Source: Limisphaerales bacterium
Lineage (GTDB): Bacteria; Verrucomicrobiota; Verrucomicrobiia; Limisphaerales; SXTU01
DNA: 64,000 nucleotides
NCBI GenBank assembly: GCA_009773355.1
Contig: WRPG01000015.1
Coordinates: forward strand, 62,001-126,000
Direction: 5' to 3'
Shown: positions 14,445-63,453 of the stretch, piece by piece
How the letters are laid out: each line of letters starts with the position of its first letter
Numbering within the stretch: the stretch's first letter is position 1
Notes under the pieces: model-generated
What the model saw: the letters and a program-made list of their open reading frames with translations, nothing else
Database searches by the model: none
Told to the model about the DNA's origin: nothing
Position numbers and translations under genes: made by a program

Positions 14445-14448
14445 CTTG
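14445..14448. repeat. Target-site duplication, right copy (CTTG)
   Basis: Second copy of the 4-base duplication flanking the insertion sequence; see the left copy at 13222-13225. Confidence 0.8.
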
Positions 14449-15578: not shown

Positions 15579-15697
15579 GGCGGGGATAAGCCTACTTTTT
15601 CCGACCGATTCGGCCAACGGATTTCAGCGGCGATCGGCCATTCGTCGCTCGCCAATCCGGGCCAAACCCAATACTTGTGTCGGGCGGCATTTAATCC

Positions 15698-22964: not shown

Positions 22965-27479
<4,515 letters not shown>

Positions 27480-27481
27480 GG

Positions 27482-37836: not shown

Positions 37837-40800
37837 TTACGGCACCTTGACGGCGAGGATTTTAAGCTGGGCGAACTCGACATCACTCAATTCGCGAGAC
37901 ACTGGGCTTTGAATGCGTCTCAGACGAATCCGATGGGGACGATCAGGGTTGCCCATTCGAGTGTAAAACCATTTACCCAAAACGATCTCCGCTGGATCGC
38001 CGGGAAGTCGAGCCACGACGATCGCGTTGGGTTCCGGCACACCATTCGCCGGGGTGGTGTCCCGCCATACGAAGGCGTGCGTGCCCTCCGCTAGTCCCGC
38101 GATTGCGTTTGGTTCGCAAAAGAGACCGAATTGCGGCGGCGGGATCTCCTCGCCGAGTCGTTGCACCGTCCACGCGCCGGGGGGAATGGAGGGAACAACC
38201 GTCGGGGCGTGCGGTCCCCCTTGACCTCCCCGGGGCACGGCTCGCAGCAGAGCGAGCGCACGCTCGGGAACCAACCTGGAATCGTAACAATCGGCGGTCA
38301 GGAGGCGGCGAACTGCTTCCCGATGGCGAACCGGTGCCGGCAAATCGCCCTCGATTGTCAGCAGTTGTTTGGTCAACTCCAGCCACTCACTTGCTTGAAC
38401 TGCATTGTCGGGGTGAGAAAGCTCTGCGAGATGGCCTGAGCCGCCCGCAAGGCTGTCGAAAAGGATGACGCTCCGGTATTGACCCGACTGAGAATCGGGC
38501 ACTGGATCAATGAGGCCGATCTCTCGTTCGTCCTGTTCAAGGGCCTTGGCAGCGGTGATCCGCAGCGCCTGACCCAATGTGTAGAGGATGTCCCGGTCGA
38601 GGGGCTGTCCCAATCCCGCGAAATCGAGCCGAAGGAGATGAGTCGCTTGCTTCGCCGCGAGGTGGTGATGCCGCCAGACCGGGGCCTCGGTGTCGGCCCA
38701 ACAGCGGGCACTGGCCCTGGTTGCGTTGAGCGGAGCGTGCCATTCAAACCTTCTCGGAAGGTCAAGCCGTCCAGTCCCACCCCGCTTCCACTCACTCTCG
38801 GCACAACCGCATTTCTGGCAAATCGCAAACCCCAGCTCGTTCGCTCCCGAGTTCATCACGAAGAGCTCACCACCATTGCGATAGGTGACCACGAGTCCCA
38901 TCAGTCCGCCGAAGCCGGGTTGAGGCGTGTCGCAATCGTCCGGGTTCTCGAAGGCCAGCGTGAAAATCGCCAGTTTGCCGACCCGCTCAAAATCGCTGCC
39001 AAACCGCGGCGGATCCCATCCGGCCGTGGTGAAGCCATGTTTGGGGAAAAGGAAGAAGCCTTCGCGCACCTGCTGACCGGGAGCGACGGAAGGCGGTGCT
39101 TGAGGCGGATCAGCCGTGAGGCTGTAAGCAAAATAGCCGTCACCGGACTTTCTGAATCTCCCGCGCAGGCCCCACGCTTCACTGTTAACGACCGCCCCAG
39201 TCCAATGTTTAAGCAGCCCTCGTGAAGTGACGATTTGTCCGCCAACCAACAGCTGTGATCCCGGGGCATACTCCCGCATCGCCATCATGCCGTCCCGTTG
39301 CAGCCGGAACTGATCCTCTTCACGAGTGTGATTCGATCCATCCGAAACCTGCACCCGGAGCCGGCTCAGTCCGATGGGGAACCCGTAGCGCGGCAGGAAT
39401 CTCGCGTCAGCCAACGCCTCGATCACCGTCAGGCGATGAAGCGCCTGAAGCTGGAAAAAGATGGAGTTGGCTTGGGATCGAAGGTGACCGGCACTGTCCG
39501 CCGCGCCAGTGCTTGGCGGAACGGCATCCCATGCGCTTGAAAGCTCTTGGTAAAGCGCCAGCCAATTCGTGATGCATTGCTCGAACTGATTTCGAAACGA
39601 TGCCAAATTGCCCGCCCAGTCCGCCTCTCCAGCCTGCACTTTGGGACAACCCGTCCACAGGCTCTGGAGCGTCGCCACATATTCGGGGGGTGCCGTCTGT
39701 CGTAGGTCGCCCAGGTAACTCAAAAACTGGTTCGACAACGGATTGGCAGCCGGTGGAGGCAGCGGAGGTTTGGCAGCCATGGTTGTTCTCCACAAAGCTG
39801 GGAGGGGCTGTCCCGAAAATGCGCCCATCCGTCCGTAAGCGTCCATCGCACCAGTGGCGTTGCTTTGGGAGAAATGCGTTCGGAAAAACTCGCCCAGTAG
39901 CCACGCGTGAGCATGTCGTCTCACCAGCGGCGCGCGATCGAGGAACACGGTCGGTCTCCGCAGGTCGCGTTCGAGATAGCGCCGGAAATCGAGGAAGACT
40001 TCGCGCTCGTAAGTCGAAGGGCGTGCGAAACCCAACACCGCCGAAGTGCCATCGGCGCGCCGCCCGGCGCGACCAGCACGTTGCAAGTAGTTGGCCTTGC
40101 CGGGGGGAAGATTGCCGAGCAGCACTGCGCTGAGGCCGCCGATGTCAATTCCGAGTTCGAGCGTGGTAGTGCTGCTGAGAATGTTGCGCATCCCCTCGCG
40201 AAACAGGTCCTGGAGTCGCGCGTTCTCTTCTGGTGCCAACTGGGCACTGTGCTCCTCGGCCCAGAGCCCGATCTTGAATCCCGACCAATCAAGGAGTTCC
40301 CGCCGGCGGCGGCCGAGGCGGGCATCCTGGTCAACGGCTTCGGGAGATATCTTGATCAGACTCGCAGTTGGTGCGCCCGGGTAAAAGCCCGCCACGCTAC
40401 GGGGCCAGACCTGCCCAGTGATCTCGCACCGATACAGGGTCGCGGGGCGGCGTAATCCAAGGTGATGGAACCGGATTTGCAGCGCCGGAACGATGTTGTC
40501 CCCATTGGTTGGCGCGTTCGGGATGAACTTCAGCCAAGGATGTCCGGCAGATTGAGCGGCCTGACTCAAGGCATCAAACGCCGCCCGCATGAGCGTCCGG
40601 GCAAGCTCACTGGCCTGCTCTTCAGCCACTCCGATAGAAACCAAGAGATTTCGAGTGAACGCATTCCGCCGCGAAGCCTGCGGTCCCTCGAAGTGCTCCC
40701 CGATGAGCGGCAACATGCTCCTTCGATAGGCTTGGTCCGCCGAGACGGACTTACCTAGCAGTCCGTTTCCGTATTGATAATCGCGATCCTCCTCTTCACT

Positions 40801-48342: not shown

Positions 48343-51090
48343 ATGAAAGTCACCTTCGGCCTCTGCCTCGACGGCTTCGCCTCCGCAGACCCGCAGCCTA
48401 GCTTCGACGAGGTCGTATGCGGCCCCGTCGGCTTGCTGCGCCTGTTGGAGCTGCGCCTCGGCCTCGTTGGTGCCTTGCCCAGCCACGGCCGGCGCGTGGT
48501 GGGCTACCGCGACGCGCTGGCGGCGTTGGCCGCTGCGGGCCCGCAGTTCTACAGCGTCTCCTTCGCGCAGGATGACTACGCGGTTGCCGAGACGCTGCTT
48601 CGGTGGCGCGATGAACTCGTGCTCGCGGGTTGGGATGGGCTGGCAGCGCCGGGTTTCAGTCCCCGGCTGGCCACGCTCGCGGCGGTGGAAGCCACGCTCG
48701 ACCCCGCGCTGAGCACCGGCGAAGGCGACCGTTTGCGCACCATCGCGGCGGCACTCGACGACCGCTCGCCGCAGTTCGACCGCGTGACGGTCACCGATCC
48801 GCTCCACGAGCTTCCAGCCCGTTGGCGGCAGCTCTTGCAAAAGCTGGGTGCGAAGTTTCTCGACGCGGACGCCGCGCTCACCGCCGCACTCGGCGCGCCG
48901 GACATCGACTTGGGAAAGTTCCAACGACTCGTCGCTGGCTTGGCGGTAGCAGCCCCGTTCCGTGGGGACGGTTCCCTCAACGTGGTCCGGGCCTACTCCA
49001 CGGAGACGCTTGCGCTGGCCGCCGCCCAGTGGCGGCGCGCCGCCGGTGCGAACGTCGCCGTCGTCGAAGGGGCTGACCTGCCTGTGCTGGATGCGGCGCT
49101 GGCCCGGACCGACGAACCGGTCGCCGGCGTGGCTGCGCGCTCGGTGCACCGCGCGATTCCGCAGGTGCTGCCGCTCGCCCTCCGGCTGCTCTGGCGACCG
49201 CTGGACCCGCAGCACCTGCTCGAATTCCTCATGCACCCGGTGTGCCCGGTCACGGGCTGGCTGCGACACCGGCTTGCTGAAGCGCTCCGTGACGCTCCCG
49301 GCGTGGGCGGCGCGCCGTGGCTGGAGGCTTTGGAGTCGGCGCGGCAAGCGGTGCGGAAACGATTCGCCGCCGACCCCGCCGCCTTGAAGGAGAACCTTGA
49401 GCGCATCGAAGCCGATCTGAACGAGTGGATCATCCTCGCCGGACATGACCCGGTCGTCGGCGCGCCGGGGGAGGCGATTACCGATGCGTGCGCGCGGGTG
49501 GCGCGCTGGGCGGGTCGGCGTGCCAATTCAAAAGTAGCCGACAGCCCCGAGGCGGCGCTGTTCCGTGCCTTGGCTGCGGCGGCGAGTGAGTTGGGCGAAC
49601 TGACCCGGACGCGCGACGTGCTCACCCGGGCGCAAGTTGAGCGATTGCTGCGGCTCGTCCAGTCCACCGGCTGGGCCGGCGCGCCGCAGGCCGCCGAGTT
49701 GGGGGTGGCCCCCGTCCGCGCGGCGGGTGCCTTCGTGGAGCCCGTGGATGCGCTGCTCTGGTGGGATGCCTCCGAACGACCGACTGCCTCGACCGCGCCG
49801 TGGACTGGCACGGAACGGGACACCCTGCATCGCGCGGGCGTTGAGCTGCTGCCCGAGGCGGCGCTGCTCAAGACGAATGCCCGGCTGGCCCTGCGTCCGC
49901 TGCTGGCGGCGCGCCGCCGACTCGTGCTCTTCCAACCGCTGCAACGCGCGGGAGAAAAGGTCGGCGAACATCCGCTCGTCACTCGCCTCCGCGCACTGCC
50001 CAAGGAGTGGAATACCCAACCGCTCTTCCGCGACCTGGATCGCGAGGCATTGGCGGACGCGCCAACGACGCCACTGGCCTGGACCAAGCTCGAACCCCGG
50101 CCCTTGCCGCGTCCGCAGCGGTGCTGGCAGTTGCCGCCGTCCGCGCCCATCCCGGCGCGCGAATACGAGAGCTACACCAGCCTCAGCAGTTTCATCTTCA
50201 CCCCGCACGACTATGTGCTGGACCGCGTGGCGCGACTGCGCGCCGGCCCGCTGGCGGGCGCGAGCGTCATCCCGGACTTCCGGCTGTTCGGCAACCTGAT
50301 CCACCGCCTCACCGAACGGATGTTTGCTGCGACCTCGACGCTGGCGTGGCCGACCGCCACGGAGGCGCAACTCGCCCGCTGGCTCGCGGTGCAATGGCCG
50401 ACCCTGCTACCGGAAGAAGGGGCGACCTTGCTGCTGCCGGGGCGTCAAAGCGAATCCGTGCGGTTGCAGGAGACCGCGCAACGCGCGCTCCTCCGCCTGC
50501 TTGAAGTGCTGCGCGCAATGCGCGCCGTCAGCGTTAAGGCCGACGTCGAGCCGGAGCGCCGGACGTTCCGCACGATCAGCGCCACGGGCAAGCCCATCTG
50601 GCTGACCGGCCGGGTGGACCTGCTGGTCACCGACGCGGAAGGCCGGCAGGTCGTCGTGGATCTTAAGTTGGGCGGTGCCGACAAGCGCACGGTCGAGCTC
50701 GAACAAAACCGGGCGTTGCAGCTCGCGGTCTACGGCTTCCTCGTGGCCGGCGCACCGCCCTTCCCACCCGGCGTCTTCCTCATCCTCAACAACCAGAAGG
50801 TGCTCACGGACGAGCCGGGCTTGATCGCCGGGGAAGCGCCCATCCTATCCGAGACCCGGGCGACTGGTCCGGCGAGCTGCTGGCAGGATTTCCTCACGAT
50901 GTGGGACTGGCGGCGAAAGCAACTGGACCGTGGCCTGATTGAGGTGAGCACGGTGGCGGGCGGCCTGGACGCAACGGCCGGTCCACCGGACCTGGTCCCA
51001 CCGCTAGCCAACTGGATTCCCACCAAGGCGGATGGCCTCGGTGAGTATTCGCCCCACGGCGCGCTCACTGGCTGGGAGGAAGAGCAATGA
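48343..51090 (+). CDS. AddB-like PD-(D/E)XK nuclease protein
   Basis: 915 residues. There is no Walker A; the N-terminus has the CGPVGLLRLLELRLGL motif seen in helicase-dead AddB-type proteins. The C-terminal nuclease domain shows GNLIHRLTERM (His motif), GRVDLLVTD (Asp, about residue 760) and VVVDLKLGG (Asp-x-Lys), then QLAVYGFLV. The region equivalent to the usual CPFxFYL iron-sulphur Cys reads SLSSFIFTPHDYVLDRV, so that Cys is missing. It pairs with the AddA-like gene that starts by ATGA overlap at 51087. Together they would resect double-strand ends for recombination, and can also degrade linear invading DNA. Confidence 0.85.
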   Translation: MKVTFGLCLDGFASADPQPSFDEVVCGPVGLLRLLELRLGLVGALPSHGRRVVGYRDALAALAAAGPQFYSVSFAQDDYAVAETLLRWRDELVLAGWDGLAAPGFSPRLATLAAVEATLDPALSTGEGDRLRTIAAALDDRSPQFDRVTVTDPLHELPARWRQLLQKLGAKFLDADAALTAALGAPDIDLGKFQRLVAGLAVAAPFRGDGSLNVVRAYSTETLALAAAQWRRAAGANVAVVEGADLPVLDAALARTDEPVAGVAARSVHRAIPQVLPLALRLLWRPLDPQHLLEFLMHPVCPVTGWLRHRLAEALRDAPGVGGAPWLEALESARQAVRKRFAADPAALKENLERIEADLNEWIILAGHDPVVGAPGEAITDACARVARWAGRRANSKVADSPEAALFRALAAAASELGELTRTRDVLTRAQVERLLRLVQSTGWAGAPQAAELGVAPVRAAGAFVEPVDALLWWDASERPTASTAPWTGTERDTLHRAGVELLPEAALLKTNARLALRPLLAARRRLVLFQPLQRAGEKVGEHPLVTRLRALPKEWNTQPLFRDLDREALADAPTTPLAWTKLEPRPLPRPQRCWQLPPSAPIPAREYESYTSLSSFIFTPHDYVLDRVARLRAGPLAGASVIPDFRLFGNLIHRLTERMFAATSTLAWPTATEAQLARWLAVQWPTLLPEEGATLLLPGRQSESVRLQETAQRALLRLLEVLRAMRAVSVKADVEPERRTFRTISATGKPIWLTGRVDLLVTDAEGRQVVVDLKLGGADKRTVELEQNRALQLAVYGFLVAGAPPFPPGVFLILNNQKVLTDEPGLIAGEAPILSETRATGPASCWQDFLTMWDWRRKQLDRGLIEVSTVAGGLDATAGPPDLVPPLANWIPTKADGLGEYSPHGALTGWEEEQ

Positions 51091-54000
51091 AGCTCCCCAT
51101 TCAATTCATCGGGGCCGGGGCCGGCTCGGGCAAGACCACGGCCGTCGTGAAGACGATCGTGGCAGCGCTGCTGGATGGCTCCTGCGCGCCGGCGGGCTTG
51201 ATCGCCACCACCTACACGGTGAAGGCGGCGCAGGAACTGCGCGAGCGCATCCGTCGTGCGCTGCTCGAAGGCGGCCATACTGCGCTGGCCGGGCAGCTCG
51301 ACCTGGCGCTCATCGGCACGGTGCACAGTGTGTGCGCCCGGCTGCTGCGGCGCTTCGCCTTCGAGGCGGGCATCTCGCCCGCGGTCGAGGTGCTGGCCGA
51401 GGAGGAAGGGGCCCGCCTGCGCGCGCAGGCGGTGGATGCGGCCAGCTCGCCTGAGGAAATCCGTGAGCTGCAACGCGTCGCCCTGCGGCTCGGACAGTTG
51501 GAGGCGCGCACCCGAGAGTTCTGGTATCCGGGGCAGTTGCGCAAGCTGCTCGACGAGATCCGTTCCAACGACTTCGCCGCCGAGCAACTGCCGGCCATGG
51601 CCGCGCACGCTGCGGAGGAGTTCTTGAGCCTGTTCCCCCGCGCCGCCACCGAGGACCTCGACCAGCGGCTCCAGCAGGCCATCGAAACCGTCGTGTCCGC
51701 GCTGGAGCAGAGCGGCAACACCAAGAAGAACACCGCCGACTATGTGGACGCCCTGCGGCGCGCGCAGAAGCAGTTGGCGAAATCGGACCTCACCTGGCTG
51801 GACTGGGTGCGGCTGGCCAAATCAGGCCCCGCCGACAAGGTGGCCGCGTTGGCCACGCCGGTCACCGACGTGCTCGCCCGCTTCGGCGAACATCCCCGGC
51901 TGCACGCGGACATTCGCGATTACACCCGCCGTCTGTTCCAGCTCGCGCAAGGCACGCTGCGCTGCTTCCAAGAGCTCAAGCAGAAGCAGGGTGTGCTCGA
52001 CTTCGCCGACTTGGAGCATCTCTCCCTGCGCCTGCTCCGGGAGAACGACACCGCGCGTGCCGCGTGCCGCGAAGGCTGGCAACTGGTCATCGTGGACGAG
52101 TTCCAGGACACCAGCCCGTTGCAACTCGCGCTCTTCATGGAGTGGGCGAAGCTGGCCCGCCGCTCGGTTTGGGTGGGCGACGTCAAGCAGGCCATCTATG
52201 GCTTCCGGAACACCGACCCGCGTCTCACCGACGCGGTCGTGGCGGGCCTGCGCAAGGCGGGCGCAGCGGACGAAGTTCTCGGTGTCTCCTACCGGTCCGT
52301 CCCCGAACTGGTGACGCTAGTCAATGAGCTGTTCCAAAAACCGTTCGCGGACTCCATCGGGCTTAGCCCCAAAGACGTCACCCTTACTGCCGACCGCAAG
52401 TCGTTCCCAGACGGCGCGCCGGCTCTGGAATTCTTCGACCTGCGCAGCGGCGTGGCCAAGAAGGATGGCAAGGGCGAGTTGAAGCTGAAGCTCAATGACC
52501 TCGCGGCGTGCGTCGCAGACGGCATTCGAAAGCTGCTCGACCCCAAAACGGGCCGCGCCATCTTCGACCGGCAGTTGGGGCAGCCGCGTCCCGTTGCCCC
52601 CGGCGACATCGCCGTCCTGTGCCGAAAAAATCAGCACGCCCGGAACATGGCCACCGCGTTGAGCGCCGCCGGCTTCACGGTCAGCCTCGGCGGGGCGGGG
52701 TTGCTGGCCACTCCGGAAGGATGCCTCGCACTGGCCTGCTTGCGACGCGTGGCGGACAAGGACGACAGCCTCGCCGCCGCCGAGGTCGTGGCACTGGGAA
52801 CTTGTAGCGAATCCGAGGTCTGGCTCGCCGAACGCCTGCAATTTCTGGCCGCGAACCCCGGTGCTGCGGACCGGTGGCGTCTGGATGGCCCGCAGGCCGA
52901 CGCACGCCTCGTGCGGCTCGAAGCGGTGCGGACACAGTCCCACTGGCTCTCGCCGACCGAGGCCCTCGACTTGGCGCTGGCCGCCGGGGAGGTGCTGGCC
53001 ACGGTCACCGCCTGGGGGCCTTCGCCGGAACGTGCGGCGCAACGGCGTGCGAACGTCGAGGCGCTCCGCGGCATGGCGGGCCGCTACGAGGACCATTGCC
53101 GCTCGGGGCGCGACCCCGCCACGATGGCGGGCTTCCTCAACTGGTGCGCCATTCAGCAGGAGAACGGGGCCGACGCCAAGGCGAGCGACCCGAGTCCGGG
53201 CGCCATCCAAGTGCTCACCTACCACGGAGCCAAGGGGCTGGAGTGGCCAGTCGTCCTCTGCACCGATCTGGAGGAGGCCGACCCGGCAGACCTGTTCGAC
53301 GTGCAGAGCGTCAGTCCGGACGCGGGCAAGGAAGTCTCCTTCGAGAACCCGCTGGCCGGACGGTCCCTGCGCTTCTGGGCCTCTCCGTTTGGCAGCAACG
53401 AAGCCGGCATTCCACTGTTGGACGACCTTCAGCAGAGCCGGTTGGCGCAGGAGCGCGAGGCGCAATCGCGCGCCGAGGCGCTGCGTTTGCTCTACGTGGG
53501 CCTGACCCGCGCACGTGACCTGCTGGTCCTCGTGCGGCTGCCCGGCCAGGAGTTGAAGTGGCTGGACTTGCTCGGCGCAACGGCCCTGTCCACCGCGGTG
53601 GATGAGGTGACGATTGCGAGCGGCAAAAACATTCCATGCCGGACCCAGATTTTGTTGCCAACCCAAGTTACACGGCAGGCTTCCGGCACGCCGCTGCGCT
53701 GGCTGGCCACCGCCTCCTCGCGCACGCCACGGGTGCCGGCGACTCTTTCCCCGTCGCACGCCAAGGCTGTGCCTGAGATCACTGCCGCCGAACCCATCAC
53801 GTATGGCTCACGTCTGCCGGTGATCGGAACGGTGGAGGAGGCTGCGCTCGGCGACGCGCTGCACGCCATCCTCGCGGCGGAACTCCTCAACCCGAACACG
53901 GCCGGCCGTGAAGCCAAGGTGCGCGAGCAGTTGGCTGGTTTCGGTTTGGCAACGTCTCTGGAAGCCGCCGCCGTGGTGGCGATGCTGGATCGTTTCCGCG

Positions 54001-54305
54001 CCGACCTCGCCCAACGCTTCTCGCCCTCGCGCGTGTTGGTGGAGACTCCGTTCAGCTTCCCACTGCCCAACGGCCAGCGCGTCAGCGGCGTGATGGACCT
54101 GTTGTTGGAAACCCCAAAGGGCTGGGTGCTACTGGATCACAAGTCCTACCAAGGCCGCCGCGACCAGTGGGCCGCGAAAGCCCTCACGTTCTCGGGGCAG
54201 CTCGCGCTCTACGCGCAGGCACTGCGTGCGAGCGGCATGACGCTCGCCGAAGTCTGGGTGCATTTCCCGGTGGGCGGAGGCTTGGTGAAACTGCAACAGA
54301 TTTAG
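51087..54305 (+). CDS. AddA-like UvrD-type helicase-nuclease
   Basis: 1072 residues, starting within the stop of the AddB-like gene (ATGA). Walker A GAGAGSGKTTA (9-19, Lys16) and TTYTVKAAQELRERI (motif Ia) are followed by motif II VDEFQDTSP (about 336-344), WVGDVKQAIYGFRNTDP (motif III), YHGAKGLEWPVV (motif V) and LLYVGLTRARDLLVLV (motif VI). The C-terminus carries a RecB/AddA nuclease domain (SGVMDLLLETPKGWVLLDHKS, with Asp and Asp-x-Lys). The architecture is that of an end-processing helicase-nuclease. Being next to a WYL regulator inside a defence island, it may be an accessory copy rather than the housekeeping enzyme. Confidence 0.9.
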   Translation: MKLPIQFIGAGAGSGKTTAVVKTIVAALLDGSCAPAGLIATTYTVKAAQELRERIRRALLEGGHTALAGQLDLALIGTVHSVCARLLRRFAFEAGISPAVEVLAEEEGARLRAQAVDAASSPEEIRELQRVALRLGQLEARTREFWYPGQLRKLLDEIRSNDFAAEQLPAMAAHAAEEFLSLFPRAATEDLDQRLQQAIETVVSALEQSGNTKKNTADYVDALRRAQKQLAKSDLTWLDWVRLAKSGPADKVAALATPVTDVLARFGEHPRLHADIRDYTRRLFQLAQGTLRCFQELKQKQGVLDFADLEHLSLRLLRENDTARAACREGWQLVIVDEFQDTSPLQLALFMEWAKLARRSVWVGDVKQAIYGFRNTDPRLTDAVVAGLRKAGAADEVLGVSYRSVPELVTLVNELFQKPFADSIGLSPKDVTLTADRKSFPDGAPALEFFDLRSGVAKKDGKGELKLKLNDLAACVADGIRKLLDPKTGRAIFDRQLGQPRPVAPGDIAVLCRKNQHARNMATALSAAGFTVSLGGAGLLATPEGCLALACLRRVADKDDSLAAAEVVALGTCSESEVWLAERLQFLAANPGAADRWRLDGPQADARLVRLEAVRTQSHWLSPTEALDLALAAGEVLATVTAWGPSPERAAQRRANVEALRGMAGRYEDHCRSGRDPATMAGFLNWCAIQQENGADAKASDPSPGAIQVLTYHGAKGLEWPVVLCTDLEEADPADLFDVQSVSPDAGKEVSFENPLAGRSLRFWASPFGSNEAGIPLLDDLQQSRLAQEREAQSRAEALRLLYVGLTRARDLLVLVRLPGQELKWLDLLGATALSTAVDEVTIASGKNIPCRTQILLPTQVTRQASGTPLRWLATASSRTPRVPATLSPSHAKAVPEITAAEPITYGSRLPVIGTVEEAALGDALHAILAAELLNPNTAGREAKVREQLAGFGLATSLEAAAVVAMLDRFRADLAQRFSPSRVLVETPFSFPLPNGQRVSGVMDLLLETPKGWVLLDHKSYQGRRDQWAAKALTFSGQLALYAQALRASGMTLAEVWVHFPVGGGLVKLQQI

Positions 54306-54411: not shown

Positions 54412-55827
54412 TCAGCGAACTCCATCCTTTCGCAGCGTTCGCTCGTCGCACTCCAACGCTTGGGCTGCGGCCGTCCAGGTTCCGTGCCGCTCTTTGGCCC
54501 ACCGGGCCAGGCTTGCACTGAACTCCTTGATGCGCTGCTGACGGCTGCCACTCCCGAATTCCGCATTCGTTGGCGCGCTCGGCGATCCCAGGCTGCGCCA
54601 TTCCGCCAATGCCCGGCCCACCGAATTCTCCTCACGCCAAGCGATGAGCATCATTGCCAGGCGTTGCAGGTCACGCAGGTTGCCCGGCAGGGGGTGTTCC
54701 TGGAGTGCCTGAGCCAGTTCCTCCGACCAGGGCGGCGGCGTTTCCTGCGCCGGGTCCCCAGTGAGCTCCCGCCAGACTGCCTGCCAGTCGCCTTTCAGGT
54801 CCGCACGACATTCGCGCAACGGGGGAATGTTTACCGAGAGGTGGCTGACACGGTCGAAGAAGTCGGCGTCCAGCCGGTTGCGTAGTTCGGCAAGCGGGAG
54901 GTTCGAGGCACAGACCATTTCGAAGTCGACGGAGATTTCCCGGTCGCTCCCCAGGGGCCGAAAGCGGCGCTGTCGGTCCTGCAGCGTCCGCACCAGCTTG
55001 CGTTGCGCGGTCTGCGGCAGATCCTGCACCTCATCTAGGAACAGGATTCCTCCATCCGCCTCCTTTAGATGGCCAGGCCGATTCACCGCCGCCCCGGTGA
55101 ACGCACCCCGCGAATGCCCGAAGAGCGCGCTTTCCGCCAGCGACGAATCCAGGCCGCCGCAGGGCACGGTCACCACCCGCTTCCTCTGCTTGAGCGTCGT
55201 GATGAAGGTTTCGACCAGCCGGGTCTTGCCCGTTCCCCGCTCACCCAGCAGGAGCAAGGGCGCGCCGGTGACTCCGGCAAAGCGGTGCAGGCGATCGAAG
55301 GCCGCCCGCCGTGCCACCGACGCCGGCTCCGGTTCATAGATGGCCAAGGCAGGCTGGGTGCGAGCCAGCTTGCGTAGCTCCGACAGGTAGGTGGTGACCG
55401 GGAACGTCACTTCGTCAATCCTGCACTTTTTTCTCTCAGGCTCAAACTGGGACGACCAGAGGCGAGAGTTTGTTGGCAACGCGCCGCCCGCATGAAGGAT
55501 CAACCAAACCGCGTGCATCGCGGGCGTCCCCGGCGACACATTGATATGGAATCGCGCGCCGCCCTGCAGGAGCGGGATCACATGCCTGCGCACCGCGGCG
55601 TAGATCTCCTCGTGAGAAGTTGGGTTCTGCAGTGGGACGAGCACGGGCTGGATGGGGATCCCTTCCAGCATTTCAGGTGCCTTGCCTGCCTGCCGGGGTT
55701 GGAGCAGGTAGATGACCTTTTCCAGGGCGACGCCGAGATTATTCAGCGCGGTGATCGCGTTGACCAGCACCTCAACTCCGTGTCTTTCCGAATGCCAGCA
55801 GACCATCACGTTCTCTTTGTTACTCAT
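54412..55827 (-). CDS. CARF-like sensor fused to a sigma-54 activator AAA+ domain (RtcR-like)
   Basis: 471 residues. Residues 1-150 form a Rossmann-like sensor: NVMVCWHSERHGVEVLVNAI at the start and FHINVSPGTPAMHAVWLIL (93-111) at the second ligand-binding loop, the pattern of CARF domains in RtcR. The AAA+ domain follows: Walker A GERGTGKT (195-202), GAFTGA (241-246), Walker B ILFLDEV (261-267), ASN and R-finger region RVSHLSVNIPPLRE. GAFTGA is the loop that contacts sigma-54, so this should be a true sigma-54 activator. The C-terminus ends in an HTH (WTAAAQALECDERTLRK). No RNA-repair genes (rtcA/rtcB) are nearby; instead it closes the helicase/PLD operon, 9 bases after the PLD gene. Likely triggered by a cyclic or linear nucleotide ligand. 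Confidence 0.85.
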   Translation of the reverse strand: MSNKENVMVCWHSERHGVEVLVNAITALNNLGVALEKVIYLLQPRQAGKAPEMLEGIPIQPVLVPLQNPTSHEEIYAAVRRHVIPLLQGGARFHINVSPGTPAMHAVWLILHAGGALPTNSRLWSSQFEPERKKCRIDEVTFPVTTYLSELRKLARTQPALAIYEPEPASVARRAAFDRLHRFAGVTGAPLLLLGERGTGKTRLVETFITTLKQRKRVVTVPCGGLDSSLAESALFGHSRGAFTGAAVNRPGHLKEADGGILFLDEVQDLPQTAQRKLVRTLQDRQRRFRPLGSDREISVDFEMVCASNLPLAELRNRLDADFFDRVSHLSVNIPPLRECRADLKGDWQAVWRELTGDPAQETPPPWSEELAQALQEHPLPGNLRDLQRLAMMLIAWREENSVGRALAEWRSLGSPSAPTNAEFGSGSRQQRIKEFSASLARWAKERHGTWTAAAQALECDERTLRKDGVR

Positions 55828-55836
55828 AGGATTCTC

Positions 55837-57363
55837 CTATCTCACTACGACGGTGGCCCCGAGTTCGGCGGCGAGTTTCCGCGCGTGCGGTCGCTCTTCA
55901 TCGCTGCGCAGGAGAACATATGTCCGCCCGTCGCATTCAAACACCGGCGGCACGTAGGAAACCTTCTCCTTGGTGGTGATGGTTGTTCCGTCCTTGCCAG
56001 GTTTTTCCACGGCATGCTCTCGCTTGCGCTCCCGCGCCTTCTGCGGCAGCTGGGGCGGACGAACTTCCCAATCGTAACGAATGCGCCGCGGGAGCCCGCG
56101 TTTGTCACCAGCGAACTCTGATCTTAGGGTGGGCTCCTTGGCTCCTTTCATGGCAAGGGCATCCGCCGCCATGATCGGAGGCAGGGTTTGAACCACTTCC
56201 TCCACCACTTGGCGCGCACCATCCCTGACGGATTGGTCAGCGGGACAGATTTCGCTGAACTCACCCTGCAGGCTTGGGCGCGCGACGAATTGCCAGGGAA
56301 AGCGTTCGCACCAACTGCGCACGGTTGCCTCCAGCGCGGCCGCTTGGGCTCCCTGCAGCCTGATGCCGGCTTCGAACCCGGCATCCAGTCCCTGGCTGGC
56401 CAGATTGGCCGTCATCACCAACCCCTCACCATCGGCCCAGATCGCCTTGGCGTGGAGCCGCTCATGGGCCACCACCCTGATGCCATGGGCGACGAGCGTC
56501 TCACAAACCTGCTTCACCGCAGGGCGCGGGCGCGTCAGCACCGTGACCCGGACTCCCCGCCCGGCGGCAGCAATGAGCGCCGCGACCGATGCGTGTTCTT
56601 CCTCCAGCCCATAGCTGCTGACCAGCAACTCCTTCTGGGCCGCAGCCAGCAGGCGGAGCACTTCCTGCCGCAGGCCATGGTCCACCCGTGTCGTCGCAAC
56701 CATCGCCCGTGGTTCAGGGATCGTTGGGAGCTTCGGCCGTGCCTCGACGGCAGCCAGCCGGCCAAGCTCGACCAATTCGTGTTCAGCCTCGCCCCAGAAG
56801 GCGTGATTGAATAATCTAGCCAGCGCTTGGGAATCTTCCGCTCCCAGTTCAACTCCCAACTCGACCCCCTCATGGAGCGCCCGGTTGAAGTTGGCGGTGG
56901 AAAGCAGCCCGCCCGCCTGCGGGGTTTGCGGATCGATCACCAAGAACTTCGCGTGAAAATGTTCCGCCGAACGCAGCGTCACCCGGCCGGCCAGCCGGTC
57001 GAGCAGCAGCTTGTGGTCGTCCACCATCCTGGCCGTGAAGGCGTCGTCCTCCTGCGGGCAGCTGCGCAGCCGCTGCTCGGAGGCATTGAGCATGTAGATC
57101 CTCACCCCGCGGGCGTGGGCCTGATCGAGGGCGGCGGCGAGCTTTTCATCCGCAATCAGGAAGGACGCCAGCAGGATCACTTCCTTGGCCTCGCCGATCA
57201 GCTTCAACAACTGGGCGTGCAGCAGTCCCTGGAGTCCGGCGGGCACCAGTCCGTGGCGCACGCCGCCATCGTCCATAGGTGTGGTCGGACCCCGGCGAAG
57301 CCAGCTCGCGGGCAGGGTGATGGTGTTGTCAACGCTGCGGCTCAGTTTCAAGGGTGCGATCAT
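55837..57363 (-). CDS. Double-HKD phospholipase-D-family nuclease
   Basis: 508 residues from the ATG at 57363, with GGAG 8 bases upstream and 4 bases after the previous stop; a frame start farther upstream would overlap the preceding gene. Two complete HxKx4D motifs are present: HAKFLVID (His137, Lys139, Asp144; followed by STANFN) and HAKAIWAD (His304, Lys306, Asp311; followed by MTANLAS). Both halves needed for one PLD active site are therefore intact. A basic C-terminal region (about 395-508, including QKARERKREHAVEKPGK) may bind nucleic acid. PLD-family enzymes serve as nucleases in DISARM (DrmC), Dpd and other helicase-linked systems. There is no signal peptide, so it acts in the cytoplasm. 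Confidence 0.88.
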   Translation of the reverse strand: MIAPLKLSRSVDNTITLPASWLRRGPTTPMDDGGVRHGLVPAGLQGLLHAQLLKLIGEAKEVILLASFLIADEKLAAALDQAHARGVRIYMLNASEQRLRSCPQEDDAFTARMVDDHKLLLDRLAGRVTLRSAEHFHAKFLVIDPQTPQAGGLLSTANFNRALHEGVELGVELGAEDSQALARLFNHAFWGEAEHELVELGRLAAVEARPKLPTIPEPRAMVATTRVDHGLRQEVLRLLAAAQKELLVSSYGLEEEHASVAALIAAAGRGVRVTVLTRPRPAVKQVCETLVAHGIRVVAHERLHAKAIWADGEGLVMTANLASQGLDAGFEAGIRLQGAQAAALEATVRSWCERFPWQFVARPSLQGEFSEICPADQSVRDGARQVVEEVVQTLPPIMAADALAMKGAKEPTLRSEFAGDKRGLPRRIRYDWEVRPPQLPQKARERKREHAVEKPGKDGTTITTKEKVSYVPPVFECDGRTYVLLRSDEERPHARKLAAELGATVVVR

Positions 57364-57367
57364 ATAG

Positions 57368-58582
57368 TTAGCTCCAGATTCCAAGGTCAAAGGCGGCCAG
57401 GAGGCGACGAGACAGAGGGTCGGCTGGCCGTTGCAAGGCTTCCGTCAGCAGTTGCCCCGGCGTGGGGAGAACGGGGGAATGAAACGCAAACCGCGACCGG
57501 ACCGAGTGCGCCAGCGTCTCCACATCGGCGCGGGTCAAGTATCGGTCAATGCTTTCCCGCAGCAGCCAGGCGGCCCATAGGCTGGCTTCCTGTTCCGAGG
57601 AGGGAGCCAGCTCCACTTGCCGCAGGGTCGTCGGCTCGAAATGCCCAAGACCGTTGAGAGTTCCTCCGGGCACGGCCGGCACGGCAAGGTCCCGGCAAAA
57701 CTGTTTTCGGGCGGCGACCGGACAGGACTTGAACTCCTGCGGAACCATCAGGCGGCCCGCCCGCTTGCTGCATTGTTGGACCGCCTCCGGACCGGTCCCG
57801 TTTCCCAATGCAACCAGCCGCTCCCAGAGATCCTTGAAGGAGAAATGAGAGACCGCGCCCAGGGGGAGGGGGCCGTTTACCCGCAGTTCGCCGAACTTGG
57901 CCTCCCGTTCCCTGCTTTCAGGAGCCAGCATTTTCCCCTCCAAACGGAGCGAAGGCTGGGGGCTGGCCTCGTCCCAGCGGAGACGGAGGTCCAACGAGGC
58001 GGACTCGCCCTCAAAGCCGGTTTTGGCCAGGCATTTGATGACAAATGCAGCCGCGCCTTCACCTTCCACCAGCCGCAAAACCGGGTGGTCGATGGCTTGC
58101 TCCAGCAGGGCCGGCACCGGTCGCCCCTGATCGGCCGCACTTTCCCTCGCCTTGCGCATCTCGCGCTGCTGGTGCCGCGCGGACTCTGCGTCTGCACCGA
58201 AGACGGGCTCCACATGAATCAAACCCGGCAGCACCAGCGGGTCGTTGCAGTAGTAGAATCGCCAGAGGCGCTCCTCGGCGACAAACACCTGGCCCAACCT
58301 TAACGACTCCTCACCCAGGGGACTCAGGCGGGCAGATTCCAACCGCACCACCCATTCCAAAAGCCCAAGTTCGACGCAGCGGCTCAAAGCCAGCCTGCCC
58401 ACCTCCTGCGGCAGCCCACCCAACAATTCCCTCGCGACATTCGCGGGCCGAAGTTCGCCGCCCAGATCCTTGGCGAGTTGCGTGACAGCCAGCCATTCCG
58501 GGCGGTGGCGTCCCACGGCCACGGTGGCCTGCGTGTCGAAGGTGGATACTTTGATGGGGCGAGCCAGTTCGATGGTTTGCAT
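57368..58582 (-). CDS. Unknown 404-aa protein of the CARF/PLD/helicase operon
   Basis: The ATG at 58582 follows the helicase stop by 2 bases. The N-terminal third contains a possible winged-helix part (WLAVTQLAKDLGGELRPANVARELLGGLPQEVGRLALSRCVELGLLEWV), which may bind nucleic acid. The middle is acidic and Arg-rich (RHQQREMRKARESAADQG) and includes FVIKCLAKTGFEGESASLDLRLRWDE. The C-terminal part is helical (EASLWAAWLLRESIDRYLTRADVETLAHSVRSRF). No enzymatic motif is recognisable. Tight spacing on both sides (2 and 4 bases) makes it an essential-looking partner of the helicase and the PLD nuclease. Confidence 0.7.
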   Translation of the reverse strand: MQTIELARPIKVSTFDTQATVAVGRHRPEWLAVTQLAKDLGGELRPANVARELLGGLPQEVGRLALSRCVELGLLEWVVRLESARLSPLGEESLRLGQVFVAEERLWRFYYCNDPLVLPGLIHVEPVFGADAESARHQQREMRKARESAADQGRPVPALLEQAIDHPVLRLVEGEGAAAFVIKCLAKTGFEGESASLDLRLRWDEASPQPSLRLEGKMLAPESREREAKFGELRVNGPLPLGAVSHFSFKDLWERLVALGNGTGPEAVQQCSKRAGRLMVPQEFKSCPVAARKQFCRDLAVPAVPGGTLNGLGHFEPTTLRQVELAPSSEQEASLWAAWLLRESIDRYLTRADVETLAHSVRSRFAFHSPVLPTPGQLLTEALQRPADPLSRRLLAAFDLGIWS

Positions 58583-58584
58583 GA

Positions 58585-61350
58585 TCAGTAGGCAATGTCA
58601 GAGCGGTAGTGCGATGAGCCAGCCAATGAGCGCAGCAGCGGGGACTTGCATCGGTCGCTGGCGAAGTAGGTCCGGTCCCCGACGAGGACCAGTTGGTAGC
58701 GAGCGCGCGTGAGCGCCACGTTGAGGCGGTTGGGGCTGTTGAGGAAGCCTACCCGGCCGCTGTTCACGAAGGAGAGGAACACCACGTCCGCCTCGTGGCC
58801 CTGGAAGCGGTCCACCGTGCAGAGGGCCACGTCGACGCAGGAGCTGCCGGCTGGCAGCTTGAATGTGCGTGTGCGTCCGTGCATGCCGCTGAGCTTCTGC
58901 AATCTGCGACGCAGCAGGGCTTCCTGCCCCTTGTAGTAGGTGAGGATCGCAACTTCCCAAGGCTGGCCGTCCCGGCGTGCCTCGGTTCCGGCCCACGCCA
59001 CGAATGCTTTGAGTTCCTTGAGCACCTCCTCGGCCTCCGCCGGATTCTCGTTCTTCTTCCGGGCGGGCATCCCGCCGCCCGACGACGGCTTTACCTCCAG
59101 CCAAACTGCCCGCCGAACATAGCGGCGGTAGCCCCACGCACGCTTGGCCTGCATGTCCGAGGCGTCGCGGAGCAAGACGCGGGATGTGTCCTGTGAATAG
59201 AACTGCTCGCGCGGAAAAGCGGTGAGGTCGGGGTGGCCGCGGTGCTGGTAACTCAGCGACACCAGTCGCTCCTCCAGCTCATCTGGCGGCAGCCCGTCCG
59301 TGAGGGCCACGGCGGGGGCGCGGTCATGCAGTCGCTCAAACCCGCTCTGCAGGAGCTCGAGGATCGAAGGCATCGCGCAGCGCCGCAGGGTCTGGATCTC
59401 GCGGTGCAATTCCGCGCCGGCGTCCTTGGCGGCACCGTCCCACCCCTCCGATTTGATCCCGCGGAAACCAAACCAGCCCTCACTCAAGGAGCGTGGCATC
59501 AGGTCTCTAATCTCAGCCCGCACCTTCTGCTCTTCTTCCGGATTCTGGCGCAGCTCGTAACTCCGAGCCAGCCGCCAAGCGACCGCCCGGGCCCAGTTTG
59601 CTTCCTCTTCGGCATCGGACGAGCGGCGTTCGCGGTTGGGCTGCGCTGCCCGGGCGGCCTGCCAATCCATCATCGAGTCCACCGCCAGACCGCAATCGTT
59701 GATCAGGCCCAGCGGAAGACGGTGCTGGAAGCGGCGCAACGCGTCCGGGCTGCCGAAAATGATCGCGGCGCTGAGCAGGTCGAACTGGGGTTCCGCAGGG
59801 TCGGCCGCATCCAGATCCAAGCAGCGGATTCCGCGGCTGTCGCATTCCGCTCGCAGAAGTTCGCGGTGCGGTTCGTCCTGAACCACCACCAGCCGGGTGT
59901 GCCGAGCTCCTTCGAAGGCTTGGTAGGCGGCGGCAGCCTGAACCGCAGGCAGCAGATTCCGCAGGTTGTCCTGAAGGTGCTGCTCCTCCACGAACGGGGA
60001 GAGCTGGCGCAAGTCGCCGACAATCACCCACCGTCTTGCGTGCAGTGCAGGGACCAGAAACTCGGTGAACGTAGTCTTGCTGGCCTCGTCGATGATCATC
60101 ATGTCAAAGGGTTCGCACTGGCCCCCTCTGATGGTGGGATGCTGGAGAATCCCAATCGTCGTGCCGCAGACCAGGTTGGAGGACTCGAGAATAAGGCTGG
60201 CGAGCGCGGACTGGCCATCGGCCGCCTCGGAGCGCAACGCCTCCGACAGGATGCGCCGCGCCGCCGCGCCGCGCGGATCCACGTCGCCCGGGCTCTCCAG
60301 GAACGTGCGGAGCCTCTCCCGCCAGGTCGCGAGCAGGCGGCTCAGGATCCATGGTTCCACCGCGTCGTCGGTCACCTTCTCCTCATCGCCGATGCGGACC
60401 GGCAGAATCGACTTCTGGCCGGACTCCAAGGCGTCCTGCTCGTCGAGCAACCGGCGGAGCACGTTGTCCACGGCCACGTGGGTGGACGCCACCAAGAGCA
60501 CCCGCTGCCCACGGCGGACCATCTGCATGACCAGCTCGCAGATCGCCGTGGTTTTGCCGGAGCCCGGCGGGCCCTCCAAGAGGGCGAAATCGGGGGTGGC
60601 CAGCGCCGTCTCCACGAATTCACGCTGCTCATCCGTCCCGTCACGCAGGGGCTGCCCGCCTGCCTGCGACCGCAGAAATACCCAGGCGGATTCCTCCAGC
60701 TCCGACGAACGCAGCGAGGGCCATGACGCTTCCCGGACCATCAGCTCCAGCAGAGGGGTCTGCCGGCGCAGCGGGTTGTCGTAGAGCGCCTGAACCGCGT
60801 CGAGTTGCCGCTTCAAACCATAGGTGTCTGGTCGCAGCCAGAGCAGCCGTGGTGGCGAATCCGCATCGCCTTCCGAGCCGGGTTCCTCGGTGCGAGGCTG
60901 CTGCTCCAGAAGCAGGGCACGGTATTCCACGTTCGAGTCGAGGCGGCTGATTTCAGAGCTTCGTTCGCATTTTTCCGAGTCGCAGACTGCCCTCGTCCGG
61001 AAGAATGCGTCGAACGTCTCCTCTGGTTCCTCGGGTCGTTCGGGAAGCACCTCCAAGATCACCCAGCATCCCTCGCGCTCGGCGCTTGCTGATGCCTTCC
61101 GGTTCCCACCTCGCCGTTTGAGCCGTGCGGCTTGGAGGTTCGCGGTCTCCTGGTCGTCCGGAAACCTCCACGCCAGGACCAGTTTGTTTCGCTCCGCGGC
61201 CCGCCTGGCATTGCGGAGATAGTGCCGGTAGGGCGTCAACTGGGATCCCACGTCGCGGATGGCACCTCCCGCTTCGCCGTGCAGTGACAGGTTGGCGTAA
61301 TTTATCAGCACGGGATTGAGGCTCGATCCGTTGCCGGGGTTTGCGGTCAT
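58585..61350 (-). CDS. UPF1/Dna2-like SF1 helicase
   Basis: 921 residues from the ATG at 61350, chosen because AGG lies 6 bases upstream; a GTG at 61485 would add 45 low-quality residues. Motifs (numbered from 61350): Q-like DEQREF (about 239-244), Walker A GPPGSGKTT (260-268), ASTHVAVDNVL (Ia), DEAS (421-424), GDLRQLSP (III), then QGHEADVVFLSFV (V) and NVALTRARYQLVLVGD (VI). This is the SF1B UPF1/Sen1/Dna2 pattern acting on RNA or DNA with 5'-3' polarity. The first 240 residues are an accessory region. No nuclease motif is seen, so cutting is presumably supplied by the PLD protein of the same operon. It is the first gene of that operon. Confidence 0.9.
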   Translation of the reverse strand: MTANPGNGSSLNPVLINYANLSLHGEAGGAIRDVGSQLTPYRHYLRNARRAAERNKLVLAWRFPDDQETANLQAARLKRRGGNRKASASAEREGCWVILEVLPERPEEPEETFDAFFRTRAVCDSEKCERSSEISRLDSNVEYRALLLEQQPRTEEPGSEGDADSPPRLLWLRPDTYGLKRQLDAVQALYDNPLRRQTPLLELMVREASWPSLRSSELEESAWVFLRSQAGGQPLRDGTDEQREFVETALATPDFALLEGPPGSGKTTAICELVMQMVRRGQRVLLVASTHVAVDNVLRRLLDEQDALESGQKSILPVRIGDEEKVTDDAVEPWILSRLLATWRERLRTFLESPGDVDPRGAAARRILSEALRSEAADGQSALASLILESSNLVCGTTIGILQHPTIRGGQCEPFDMMIIDEASKTTFTEFLVPALHARRWVIVGDLRQLSPFVEEQHLQDNLRNLLPAVQAAAAYQAFEGARHTRLVVVQDEPHRELLRAECDSRGIRCLDLDAADPAEPQFDLLSAAIIFGSPDALRRFQHRLPLGLINDCGLAVDSMMDWQAARAAQPNRERRSSDAEEEANWARAVAWRLARSYELRQNPEEEQKVRAEIRDLMPRSLSEGWFGFRGIKSEGWDGAAKDAGAELHREIQTLRRCAMPSILELLQSGFERLHDRAPAVALTDGLPPDELEERLVSLSYQHRGHPDLTAFPREQFYSQDTSRVLLRDASDMQAKRAWGYRRYVRRAVWLEVKPSSGGGMPARKKNENPAEAEEVLKELKAFVAWAGTEARRDGQPWEVAILTYYKGQEALLRRRLQKLSGMHGRTRTFKLPAGSSCVDVALCTVDRFQGHEADVVFLSFVNSGRVGFLNSPNRLNVALTRARYQLVLVGDRTYFASDRCKSPLLRSLAGSSHYRSDIAY

Positions 61351-61754
61351 GCGCATCCTGTTATCAGGTGGCGTGCCAGCCAGCCGCTGGTTGATTTCGC
61401 CTTGTTTTTGAATAGGGAAGGCCCATGGGCCAGCGGGAAGAGCGGGTGAAAGCGCCCGCAGCCGGGCCAGTTTTGCAGTTGCCACCTGCTGTCCGGAGCC
61501 CCAGCAATCCCCCCATCTGCCCCGCCGCGGTGGCGGGTGGCGAAGTGTTTGCCAATTTCGATTTCACGGGTGCCACCCTATCGCCACTCAATACGCCACG
61601 GGGTAATACAAATGCCAATACCTCAGGATTGGTTTTCAAAATGCACCCGCCGCCTGCATTTTTGGCCCGGTGGGAGCGCCTCACTCAACTCGTGTCCCGG
61701 TGACTGCGGATGTCAGACCCCGGCGTCCAAACTCGGCGGACAACAAATAACATC
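61351..61754. other. Divergent intergenic region between the CARF/PLD/helicase operon and the gene at 61755
   Basis: About 400 bases. It holds an unlikely 45-codon N-terminal extension of the helicase frame, the sigma-54-like candidate at 61540-61554, and whatever drives the plus-strand gene at 61755. AT content rises around 61590-61650 (TAATACAAATGCCAATACC), as promoters often do, but I cannot pick a clear -35/-10 pair. Confidence 0.4.
61540..61554 (-). promoter_or_regulatory. Candidate sigma-54 (-24/-12) promoter for the CARF/PLD/helicase operon
   Basis: On the minus strand the sequence reads TGGCAAACACTTCGC. Aligned to TGGCACGnnnnTTGC it matches 8 of 11 conserved bases, with the invariant GG and GC elements at the required spacing. 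Transcription would begin near 61529, about 180 bases ahead of the chosen helicase start. The operon ends with a sigma-54 activator, which makes the site more meaningful than its score alone. Confidence 0.3.
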
Positions 61755-62229: not shown

Positions 62230-63453
62230 ATGGTCGTGTCCAACTTGAAACACCCCCGCTCACCCGGCTTCCGCTTCAGCCAAGGCCAGCTCTGCATCAC
62301 CACCGCGCAGGAGGAGATGCGGCTGGGCACCTGGCCGCTGCTGGAGGCGACGCGCCGGCGCAACGGCGAATCGAAATGGAGCCGCTTCGTGCCGGTCTTC
62401 CGCCTGCTTCGACCCAAGCATGATCCGCTGGCGATCGAGCCCGGGCCTGCCGGAGTGCGCGGCCAGTCGGTGGACCCGCTGCTGGAGAAGCACCTCGCCT
62501 TCCGACTTTTTCGCCAAGCCATTCCACCCAGATTGGCGCAGGCGGCGGAGCGCTTTTCTGCCCGGCAGTGGGCGGTGCTGCGGATGGTGCAGGAGCGCGA
62601 GGTGGCCGCCGATCTCCTCGAACAGAATCCCGCCCTCGGGTTCTGCGCGGCCAACCTCGGCAAGTTTAGGACGCTCTTCGGGAACCTCGGGAAGCAGGCC
62701 GCCGAGTTGTCCCGCCGCCCGCAGCGCGAGGTGCTGGCGTGGCTCGGATTTCCCGACACGCAGGCGTGGGTCAACATCGTGCGCAAGCTTCTGCCCGAGA
62801 CCGTGACGGTCGAGCGTGTGCTGGCACTGCGGGTGGTGTCTGCCGTTCCCGAAGTGACGCAGCGACTGGCGCATGTTCCCGCCATCAATACCGGTCTGCT
62901 GGAACTGGCGAACCAGCCCAGCCTGCTGACGCAGGTGTCACCGGCCTTGCTCAACGAGATTGCCAATGCGGAGGAGGAACGGTTGCAAGCCTCGGCGGTG
63001 CGGCTCTTGGAGGACATGGTGCGCGAACTGGAGCACATGGGCCGCCGCCCTCGCCTCGCGAGCCTGAAGACACTGGCGAGTCTGCGTCAGCGCAGCCACG
63101 AAGTCGCCGAGGAGTTTCAACAGCACGTGGACGTGATGCGCAGCGCCGGCAGCTTCCTTGAGCCACCGGTGCCGGGCACGGCAGACATAGTGCCCCTCAC
63201 GGACGCCGGGCAGTTGCTGGAGGAGGGGCGGGCGCAGCGCAACTGCGTCGGTGGCTACACTTCGCGCGTCGTCGGTGGCAAAGTGTTCGTCTATCGCGTG
63301 CTGAAGCCGGAACGGGCGACCCTGTCGCTTCGCTCGGGGGCTGACGGCGGCTGGGAAATCGAGCAACTGCTGCGGGCGTGCAACCAGCCGGTTTCGCCGG
63401 CAACGGCCCAGTCGGTGCGTTTATGGCTGGCGCGGGAAAGCGTCTCGATCTGA
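62230..63453 (+). CDS. PcfJ-like protein
   Basis: 407 residues. The N-terminal 300 residues are helical with leucine-rich stretches. The C-terminal region carries the PcfJ-type signature (LTDAGQLLEEGRAQRNCVGGY, residues about 319-339, followed by VVGGKVFVYRV and ATLSLR). The family is named after a protein of the conjugative plasmid pCF10 and is scattered over plasmids, phages and bacterial genomes; its biochemical role is not known. An AGGA sequence lies just upstream of the ATG. Its presence is consistent with mobile-element ancestry of this end of the window. Confidence 0.75.
   Translation: MVVSNLKHPRSPGFRFSQGQLCITTAQEEMRLGTWPLLEATRRRNGESKWSRFVPVFRLLRPKHDPLAIEPGPAGVRGQSVDPLLEKHLAFRLFRQAIPPRLAQAAERFSARQWAVLRMVQEREVAADLLEQNPALGFCAANLGKFRTLFGNLGKQAAELSRRPQREVLAWLGFPDTQAWVNIVRKLLPETVTVERVLALRVVSAVPEVTQRLAHVPAINTGLLELANQPSLLTQVSPALLNEIANAEEERLQASAVRLLEDMVRELEHMGRRPRLASLKTLASLRQRSHEVAEEFQQHVDVMRSAGSFLEPPVPGTADIVPLTDAGQLLEEGRAQRNCVGGYTSRVVGGKVFVYRVLKPERATLSLRSGADGGWEIEQLLRACNQPVSPATAQSVRLWLARESVSI

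Follow-up and report, generated by a model that had tools for sequence, protein, structure and literature searches.

The window, that is, the whole 64,000-nucleotide stretch of DNA analyzed here, contains an operon of four genes, which encode a UPF1-like helicase, a 404-aa protein of an unnamed family, a PLD-family nuclease with two HKD motifs, and an activator with a CARF sensor; a sigma-54 promoter and an enhancer precede it. We consider it likely that this is an inducible antiviral cassette switched by its own dedicated sigma-54 activator. The four-gene arrangement is not a matter of chance, because the order is kept across phyla, and the defence reading rests on the genomic context.

Organization of the locus and domains of the proteins

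According to the list of open reading frames, four consecutive genes are located at 54412-61485 on the minus strand and are transcribed in the order helicase, 404-aa protein, PLD nuclease, and regulator. With ATG 57363 as the start of the PLD gene, the intergenic gaps are 2, 4, and 9 bases, and the tight packing described in the initial annotation thus agrees with the coordinates of the frames. The features, all on the minus strand, are as follows.

61443-61458, minus: enhancer (UAS) dyad CGGGCGCTTTCACCCG, of the CGGGY-N6-RCCCG class (0 mismatches)
61363-61378, minus: sigma-54 -24/-12 promoter, TGGCACG-CCAC-CTGAT (consensus scan)
58585-61311, minus: UPF1/SMUBP-2-like SF1B helicase (Pfam, PADLOC, and PDB matches; start assigned by homology; open frame to 61485)
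60550-60573, minus: helicase Walker A, GPPGSGKT (invariant in the helicase alignment)
57368-58582, minus: unnamed 404-aa protein (without Pfam, NCBIfam, or PADLOC family; AlphaFold2 model)
58289-58513, minus: winged-helix domain, residues 24-98 of the unnamed protein (structure comparison)
55837-57363, minus: double-HKD PLD-family nuclease (Pfam PLDc_2, 5e-22; open frame to 57390)
56932-56955, minus: first HxKx4D of the PLD nuclease, HAKFLVID (H146, K148, and D153 invariant in 44 relatives)
56431-56454, minus: second HxKx4D of the PLD nuclease, HAKAIWAD (H313 invariant and K315 nearly invariant in 44 relatives)
54412-55827, minus: CARF-AAA+-HTH sigma-54 activator of the RtcR_PspF1 subfamily, 471 aa (PADLOC PDLC01994)
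55329-55827, minus: CARF sensor domain with the motif NxSPGTPAMHAVW (CARF profile matches)
55090-55107, minus: GAFTGA loop, regulator residues 241-246 (mostly at least 90% conserved in 41 regulators)

The helicase is recognized by Pfam AAA_11/AAA_12 and matches SMUBP-2 in the PDB at 1e-29; its C-terminal half matches the PADLOC MkoA model (1.9e-90). The initial annotation placed its start at ATG 61350, which should be revised. Because the homologues begin with MALLxYANL, the true start is probably GTG 61311, 39 bases further in, and with this start the -24/-12 promoter would fall just upstream of the gene.

No family was found for the 404-aa protein in Pfam, NCBIfam, or PADLOC, consistent with its earlier description as unknown. 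Its AlphaFold2 model, based on 52 relatives, has a mean pLDDT of 91.9, and residues 24-98 form a MarR-like winged helix (Z 10.7 for residues 25-97, with 70 residues aligned at 1.9 A). Searches with Foldseek and VIA-align gave no convincing match for the beta-rich C-terminal part; the winged helix dominated the match list and the C-terminal part was barely covered, and for this reason we do not claim a new fold. A333/W336 and a DWxL-type tail at the C terminus are conserved in the family and are candidate contact sites.

The catalytic residues of the PLD nuclease are H146/K148/D153 and H313/K315/D320, and five of the six are in invariant or nearly invariant columns among 44 relatives. Its best matches in both NCBIfam and PADLOC are DrmC, and MkoB is matched in part (3.2e-13). 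For the regulator, the whole protein matches the PADLOC model RtcR_PspF1--CARF_AAA_HTH at 1.1e-153 (residues 4-467 on positions 2-463 of 468). The AAA+ part is recognized by Pfam Sigma54_activat (5.4e-37), contains the Walker motifs and GAFTGA, the loop contacting sigma-54, and resembles FleQ over residues 163-413 in a structure comparison (Z 25.4). Thus, Pfam matches and motif residues bear out the initial assignment of an SF1B helicase, a PLD protein with both HxKx4D motifs, and an AAA+ domain with GAFTGA.

The initial annotation further suggested a CARF-like domain at the N terminus of the regulator, and comparison with CARF profiles recovered it. In profile searches limited to residues 1-166, the models CARF1--CARF_HEPN (1.4e-9) and Csx1/Csm6 (2.1e-5) are matched, and among 32 relatives of the regulator, 29 match CARF1--CARF_HEPN and 19 match Pfam Csm6_CARF. 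On the basis of these profile matches, the sensor is a CARF domain. The match list of a fold search with the regulator was filled by AAA+ chains, and a sequence profile of the CARF domain matched no CARF structure in the PDB. In cOA-binding CARFs, K or R after strand 4 contacts the ligand, and this residue is not required of RtcR-type members. The strand-4 motif of the present family, NxSPGTPAM, has P at the position of this K and is invariant across the alignments. With proline in place of the lysine, the domain seems unlikely, from its sequence, to sense ordinary cyclic oligoadenylate. RtcR-type CARFs mostly do not have the strand-4 lysine and may bind other ligands (PMC4012209).

Distribution of the cassette

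The helicase alignment was used to scan 84,980 species genomes and gave 80 loci; the profiles of the other three genes were not used in the choice of loci and were run over them afterwards. Sixty-two loci, in which the sequence continues for at least 5.5 kb beyond the helicase, were suitable for comparison. The 404-aa protein is present in 61 of these 62, the trio including the PLD nuclease is present in order in 56, and the regulator is the fourth gene in 41, in bacteria only. The neighbourhood survey therefore upholds the proposed linkage of the four genes, with their order kept. Regulator-bearing loci belong to Pseudomonadota, Myxococcota, Planctomycetota, Spirochaetota, and Fibrobacterota; one further regulator-bearing MAG is labelled Cyanobacteriota, and its copy groups with those of Phycisphaerales. 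The archaeal loci (Heimdall- and Lokiarchaeota, Nitrososphaerota, Thermoplasmatota, and methanogens) have the trio, or the visible part of it, and no regulator.

In the helicase tree, the copy in the window clusters with those of Myxococcota, Pseudomonas, and Insolitispirillum (support 99). Loci L075 and L080-L085 form a deeper branch with helicases of approximately 1100-1200 aa and no regulator, and several of them have a middle protein of approximately 550 aa; this branch is possibly a second subtype of the cassette. Several loci have unusual gene structures, and in some the cassette is disrupted. The helicase is split into two frames in Motilimonas (L031, 7595-11663) and in a Rhodocyclales MAG (L045, 9438-12265). 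In a Polyangiaceae MAG (L076, 9306-13352), a helicase frame of 1348 aa has a -24/-12 site and an enhancer dyad, and genes 2-4 have no separate match downstream.

On plasmids, a tblastn search recovered the complete four-gene set, with its order unchanged, from Pontibrevibacter (Alphaproteobacteria) and two Vibrio species. On a plasmid of Vibrio aerogenes (L004, 9418-17722), the cassette is beside a type III-B CRISPR locus, in which the Cas1 gene is unusually long (3012 bases). On a Klebsiella plasmid (L003, 9597-13365), the cassette is disrupted: genes of the IS21 family immediately precede the PLD gene, and the annotation contains no intact helicase. In the phylum of the window, the 404-aa protein was found in one of 289 genomes, and among relatives in one of 97; a pattern scan of genome contigs for this protein found no relative. 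As the cassette is sporadic, it has probably moved horizontally. Scans of viral contigs with the PLD alignment or the regulator pattern found no relative, a tblastn search of phages with the Vibrio PLD protein gave no match, and neither did a DNA search of E. coli genomes. Thus, within those collections, the cassette is neither phage-borne nor an E. coli system.

Sigma-54 promoter and enhancer

Control by sigma-54 had been proposed from the GAFTGA motif only; it now gains support from a conserved -24/-12 promoter, an enhancer, and the presence of one rpoN in the genome to which the window belongs. To find promoters, the 120 bases before each helicase start were scanned for TGGCACG-N4-TTGCW. 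A well-scoring site was found at 39 of 46 regulator loci and at none of 22 regulator-free loci (15 archaeal loci and 7 bacterial loci with room for the regulator gene), with 1.3 expected in shuffled sequences (Fisher 4e-12, without a correction for kinship). Among the seven misses, two are broken helicase genes, and when the site found at the real start is counted, the ratio becomes 41 of 47. The sites are mostly located 25-65 nt upstream of the helicase. At six loci that have the promoter and no visible regulator, the contigs or the matches end before the fourth gene. An independent-pairs test of the regulator against the promoter had four usable pairs, of which about three agree and none oppose (p 0.25). 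Since only four pairs are strictly independent, shared descent may explain part of the promoter pattern. Archaeal copies have neither the regulator nor the promoter, and the archaeal genomes tested have no rpoN.

An unbiased search for upstream dyads found CGGG-N8-CCCG in 11 of 27 loci, compared with 0.3 expected. As CGGGY-N6-RCCCG without mismatch, the dyad is present at 14 of 47 regulator loci, compared with 0.21 expected in shuffled sequences, and at 0 of 14 archaeal loci. Of the 19 regulators with a recognition helix of the form C[DN]ExTLR, 13 are accompanied by the dyad, and the 27 regulators with other helices never are; this is the pattern that binding of the dyad by the HTH would predict. 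In the window, the UAS is 147 nt upstream of the helicase start and approximately 65 bases upstream of the -24 element. The combination of UAS and promoter occurs once in the 6.16-Mb genome, at the helicase operon, and the reversed control gave 0. Hand-picked repeats, GGGTGGCACCC (around position 61577) and TACACCTATAGGTGTA of Vibrio, were considered as the general enhancer and rejected, as the unbiased search gave CGGGY-N6-RCCCG; the repeat TACACCTATAGGTGTA may be a site of the Vibrio clade's own.

Regulators without GAFTGA

Three regulators in two lineages have lost GAFTGA, namely those of the sister Rhodobacterales loci L002 and L052 and that of Moraxella oblonga (L040). The -24/-12 promoter is absent at all three loci, and it is present with 40 of the 43 regulators that have GAFTGA. 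This joint loss of the motif and the promoter supports the sigma-54 wiring. The Rhodobacterales regulators (L002, 13335-14756; L052, 14193-15614) retain the CARF domain, the HTH, and the enhancer dyad. The genome of Jannaschia (L052) has no rpoN, and the enhancer is retained upstream of the operon. These regulators may be sigma-54-independent activators or repressors. In M. oblonga (14402-15796), GAFTGA was lost independently; rpoN is present in this species, and a sigma-70-like TTGACA/TACAAT pair precedes the operon. The Rhodobacterales and Moraxella copies are natural experiments in which an inducible system becomes independent of sigma-54.

Genomic context in the window

Besides the operon, the window holds a defence island that spans 18636-47733, with the following genes.

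18636-19793: YhcG PDDEXK nuclease
20934-22952: LmuB-like protein
22965-27485: type IIG/DrmMI-like methylase
30301-35619 and 37837-43482: two DruE-like helicases
36112-37812: NERD-helicase
43511-46300: unmatched 929-aa protein, in the orientation shared with the island genes

A convergent pair of AddB-like and AddA-like helicase-nucleases is located at 48343-54305; the GC content of this region is 69%, compared with 65% for the window, and no full-length counterpart of the AddA-like protein was found in ten genomes of the genus. At 62230-63453, a gene for a PcfJ-like 407-aa protein is divergent from the operon and adjoins the gene for a 165-aa protein without a Pfam family.

Possible function of the cassette

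Drawing on what is established for RtcR, sigma-54 activators, and UPF1 helicases, we infer a mechanism, including complex formation, the substrate, the ligand, and the antiviral role. A signal from infection or RNA damage would bind to the CARF domain, a hexamer of the activator would form on the enhancer CGGGY-N6-RCCCG, and its AAA+/GAFTGA ring would open sigma-54 RNA polymerase at the -24/-12 promoter. The operon would be transcribed, including the activator gene, and a positive loop would result. Of the products, the UPF1-like helicase may travel along foreign RNA or single-stranded DNA, and the winged-helix protein, for which the winged helix suggests an adaptor role, may couple the helicase to nucleic acid or to the nuclease. 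The PLD nuclease would cut, and the products of the trio would together degrade foreign nucleic acid. As for the signal, damaged tRNA induces RtcR itself (PMC7790460), and the authors of the CoCoNuT study proposed the same signal for defence-linked homologues of RtcR (PMC11090510).

On balance, we lean towards a broader history, in which an ancient and unnamed antiviral trio of a helicase, a winged-helix adaptor of a new family, and a double PLD nuclease is common to bacteria and archaea. Bacteria would have added an infection sensor through sigma-54 rather than through allosteric activation of the nuclease, and the step from the activator to sigma-54 would have been dismantled at least twice, with the cassette kept. 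The trio, with copies in Asgard and other archaea, seems to represent a defence family that is widespread and has no name.

A device of the abortive-infection or toxin type is possible, although we hold it doubtful. The nuclease would attack RNA or DNA of the host, and sigma-54 would keep it silent until a signal reaches the CARF domain. Tight gating by sigma-54 and a positive loop would suit such a costly effector, and CARF-linked nucleases, as in type III CRISPR, often kill or arrest the host. However, the archaeal copies and some bacterial copies have neither the regulator nor the gate, and this speaks against the trio being extremely toxic.

It is unlikely that the cassette is a Mokosh system with an added partner and regulator. 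The matches of the helicase to MkoA (1.9e-90) and of the PLD protein to MkoB (3.2e-13) point in this direction, and the pairing of a UPF1-like helicase with a PLD nuclease is common to the two systems. However, the matches extend over no more than the second half of each model, DrmC models outscore MkoB, and PADLOC has no match for the conserved middle gene.

We regard as quite unlikely a response to stress or nucleic acid damage, with the operon serving RNA quality control or decay, in which the regulator would sense broken RNA and the helicase and nuclease would clear damaged RNA, as a degrading counterpart of repair by RtcAB. The regulator is a relative of RtcR, below the NCBIfam cut-off, the inducer of RtcR is damaged tRNA (PMC7790460), and relatives of UPF1 act on RNA. 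However, the sporadic presence, the carriage on plasmids, and the setting in a defence island fit defence better than housekeeping, and the operon contains no rtcA, rtcB, or other RNA-repair gene, as the initial annotation stated. It is very improbable that the regulator is only incidentally part of the operon, as a general bystander with further defence genes of the island under its control: RtcR-like CARF regulators do accompany several other defence systems (PMC4012209, PMC11090510), but in 41 of 62 loci this one closes the cassette, and the UAS-promoter combination occurs once in the genome.

The CARF proteins investigated so far are mostly nucleases or regulators linked to CRISPR. In the present case, a readable promoter and enhancer connect a CARF sensor to one defined set of effectors, and the old question of what RtcR-type CARFs sense outside RNA repair therefore becomes testable with reporters.

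Comparison with known systems

The regulator shares with RtcR and RtcR_PspF1 a CARF sensor, an NtrC-type AAA+ domain with GAFTGA, an HTH, and a sigma-54 promoter. It differs from RtcR in being the last gene of an operon of a helicase, a winged-helix protein, and a PLD nuclease, without rtcAB. Assignment as an RtcR equivalog was rejected, since the NCBIfam score is 184.5 bits against a cut-off of 650 (3.5e-54) and there is no linkage to rtcA or rtcB.

Mokosh type I (MkoA and MkoB) likewise has a UPF1-like helicase and a PLD-domain nuclease, and the cassette may work like it. However, the cassette adds a conserved third protein and a dedicated CARF-sigma-54 regulator. MkoA is matched only at 505-1085 of 1112 and MkoB only at 315-593 of 610, another gene is located between the two genes, and in PADLOC the PLD protein scores DrmC models above MkoB. 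Because the models match only the second halves of the helicase and the PLD protein, membership in Mokosh is not claimed.

CoCoNuT systems resemble the cassette in several respects: types II and III have a UPF1-like helicase, CnuH, RtcR homologues occur with types II and III-A, and type III-C has PLD pairs joined to a winged-helix domain (PMC11090510). However, CoCoNuTs carry the CARF gene at their 5' end (PMC11090510), whereas the regulator is last in the cassette. A CoCoNuT assignment was rejected, as no gene for a McrB-type GTPase (CnuB), which has a coiled-coil partner in CoCoNuTs, was found in the four-gene cassette or in the annotated plasmid copies. DISARM provides the best library match of the PLD protein, DrmC. 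However, the PLD protein of the cassette has two HKD motifs, is about twice the length of DrmC, and scores 87 against a cut-off of 133; furthermore, the helicase is UPF1-like and there is no DrmA or DrmB, for which reason DISARM was also rejected.

The initial annotation held that the operon corresponds to no named system. This stands for the cassette as a whole, for which no matching system was found, but not for its parts, as the regulator subfamily is catalogued in PADLOC and the helicase with the PLD nuclease resembles Mokosh. Existing software may report the trio as Mokosh, a stray helicase, or DrmC. Neither the trio as a named system nor the family of the middle protein was found in the libraries and literature searched; subscription papers, including the 2020 classification of CARF, are outside this scope, and an earlier mention is possible. 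CARF-sigma-54 regulators tied to defence genes were predicted earlier (PMC4012209, PMC11090510). What was known already, therefore, comprises the subfamily of the regulator, the prediction that it is linked to defence, and the theme of a helicase with a PLD nuclease (Mokosh, DISARM, and CoCoNuT type III-C); the evidence from the promoter, the enhancer, and the loss of GAFTGA, for which we found no precedent, is new relative to the literature searched.
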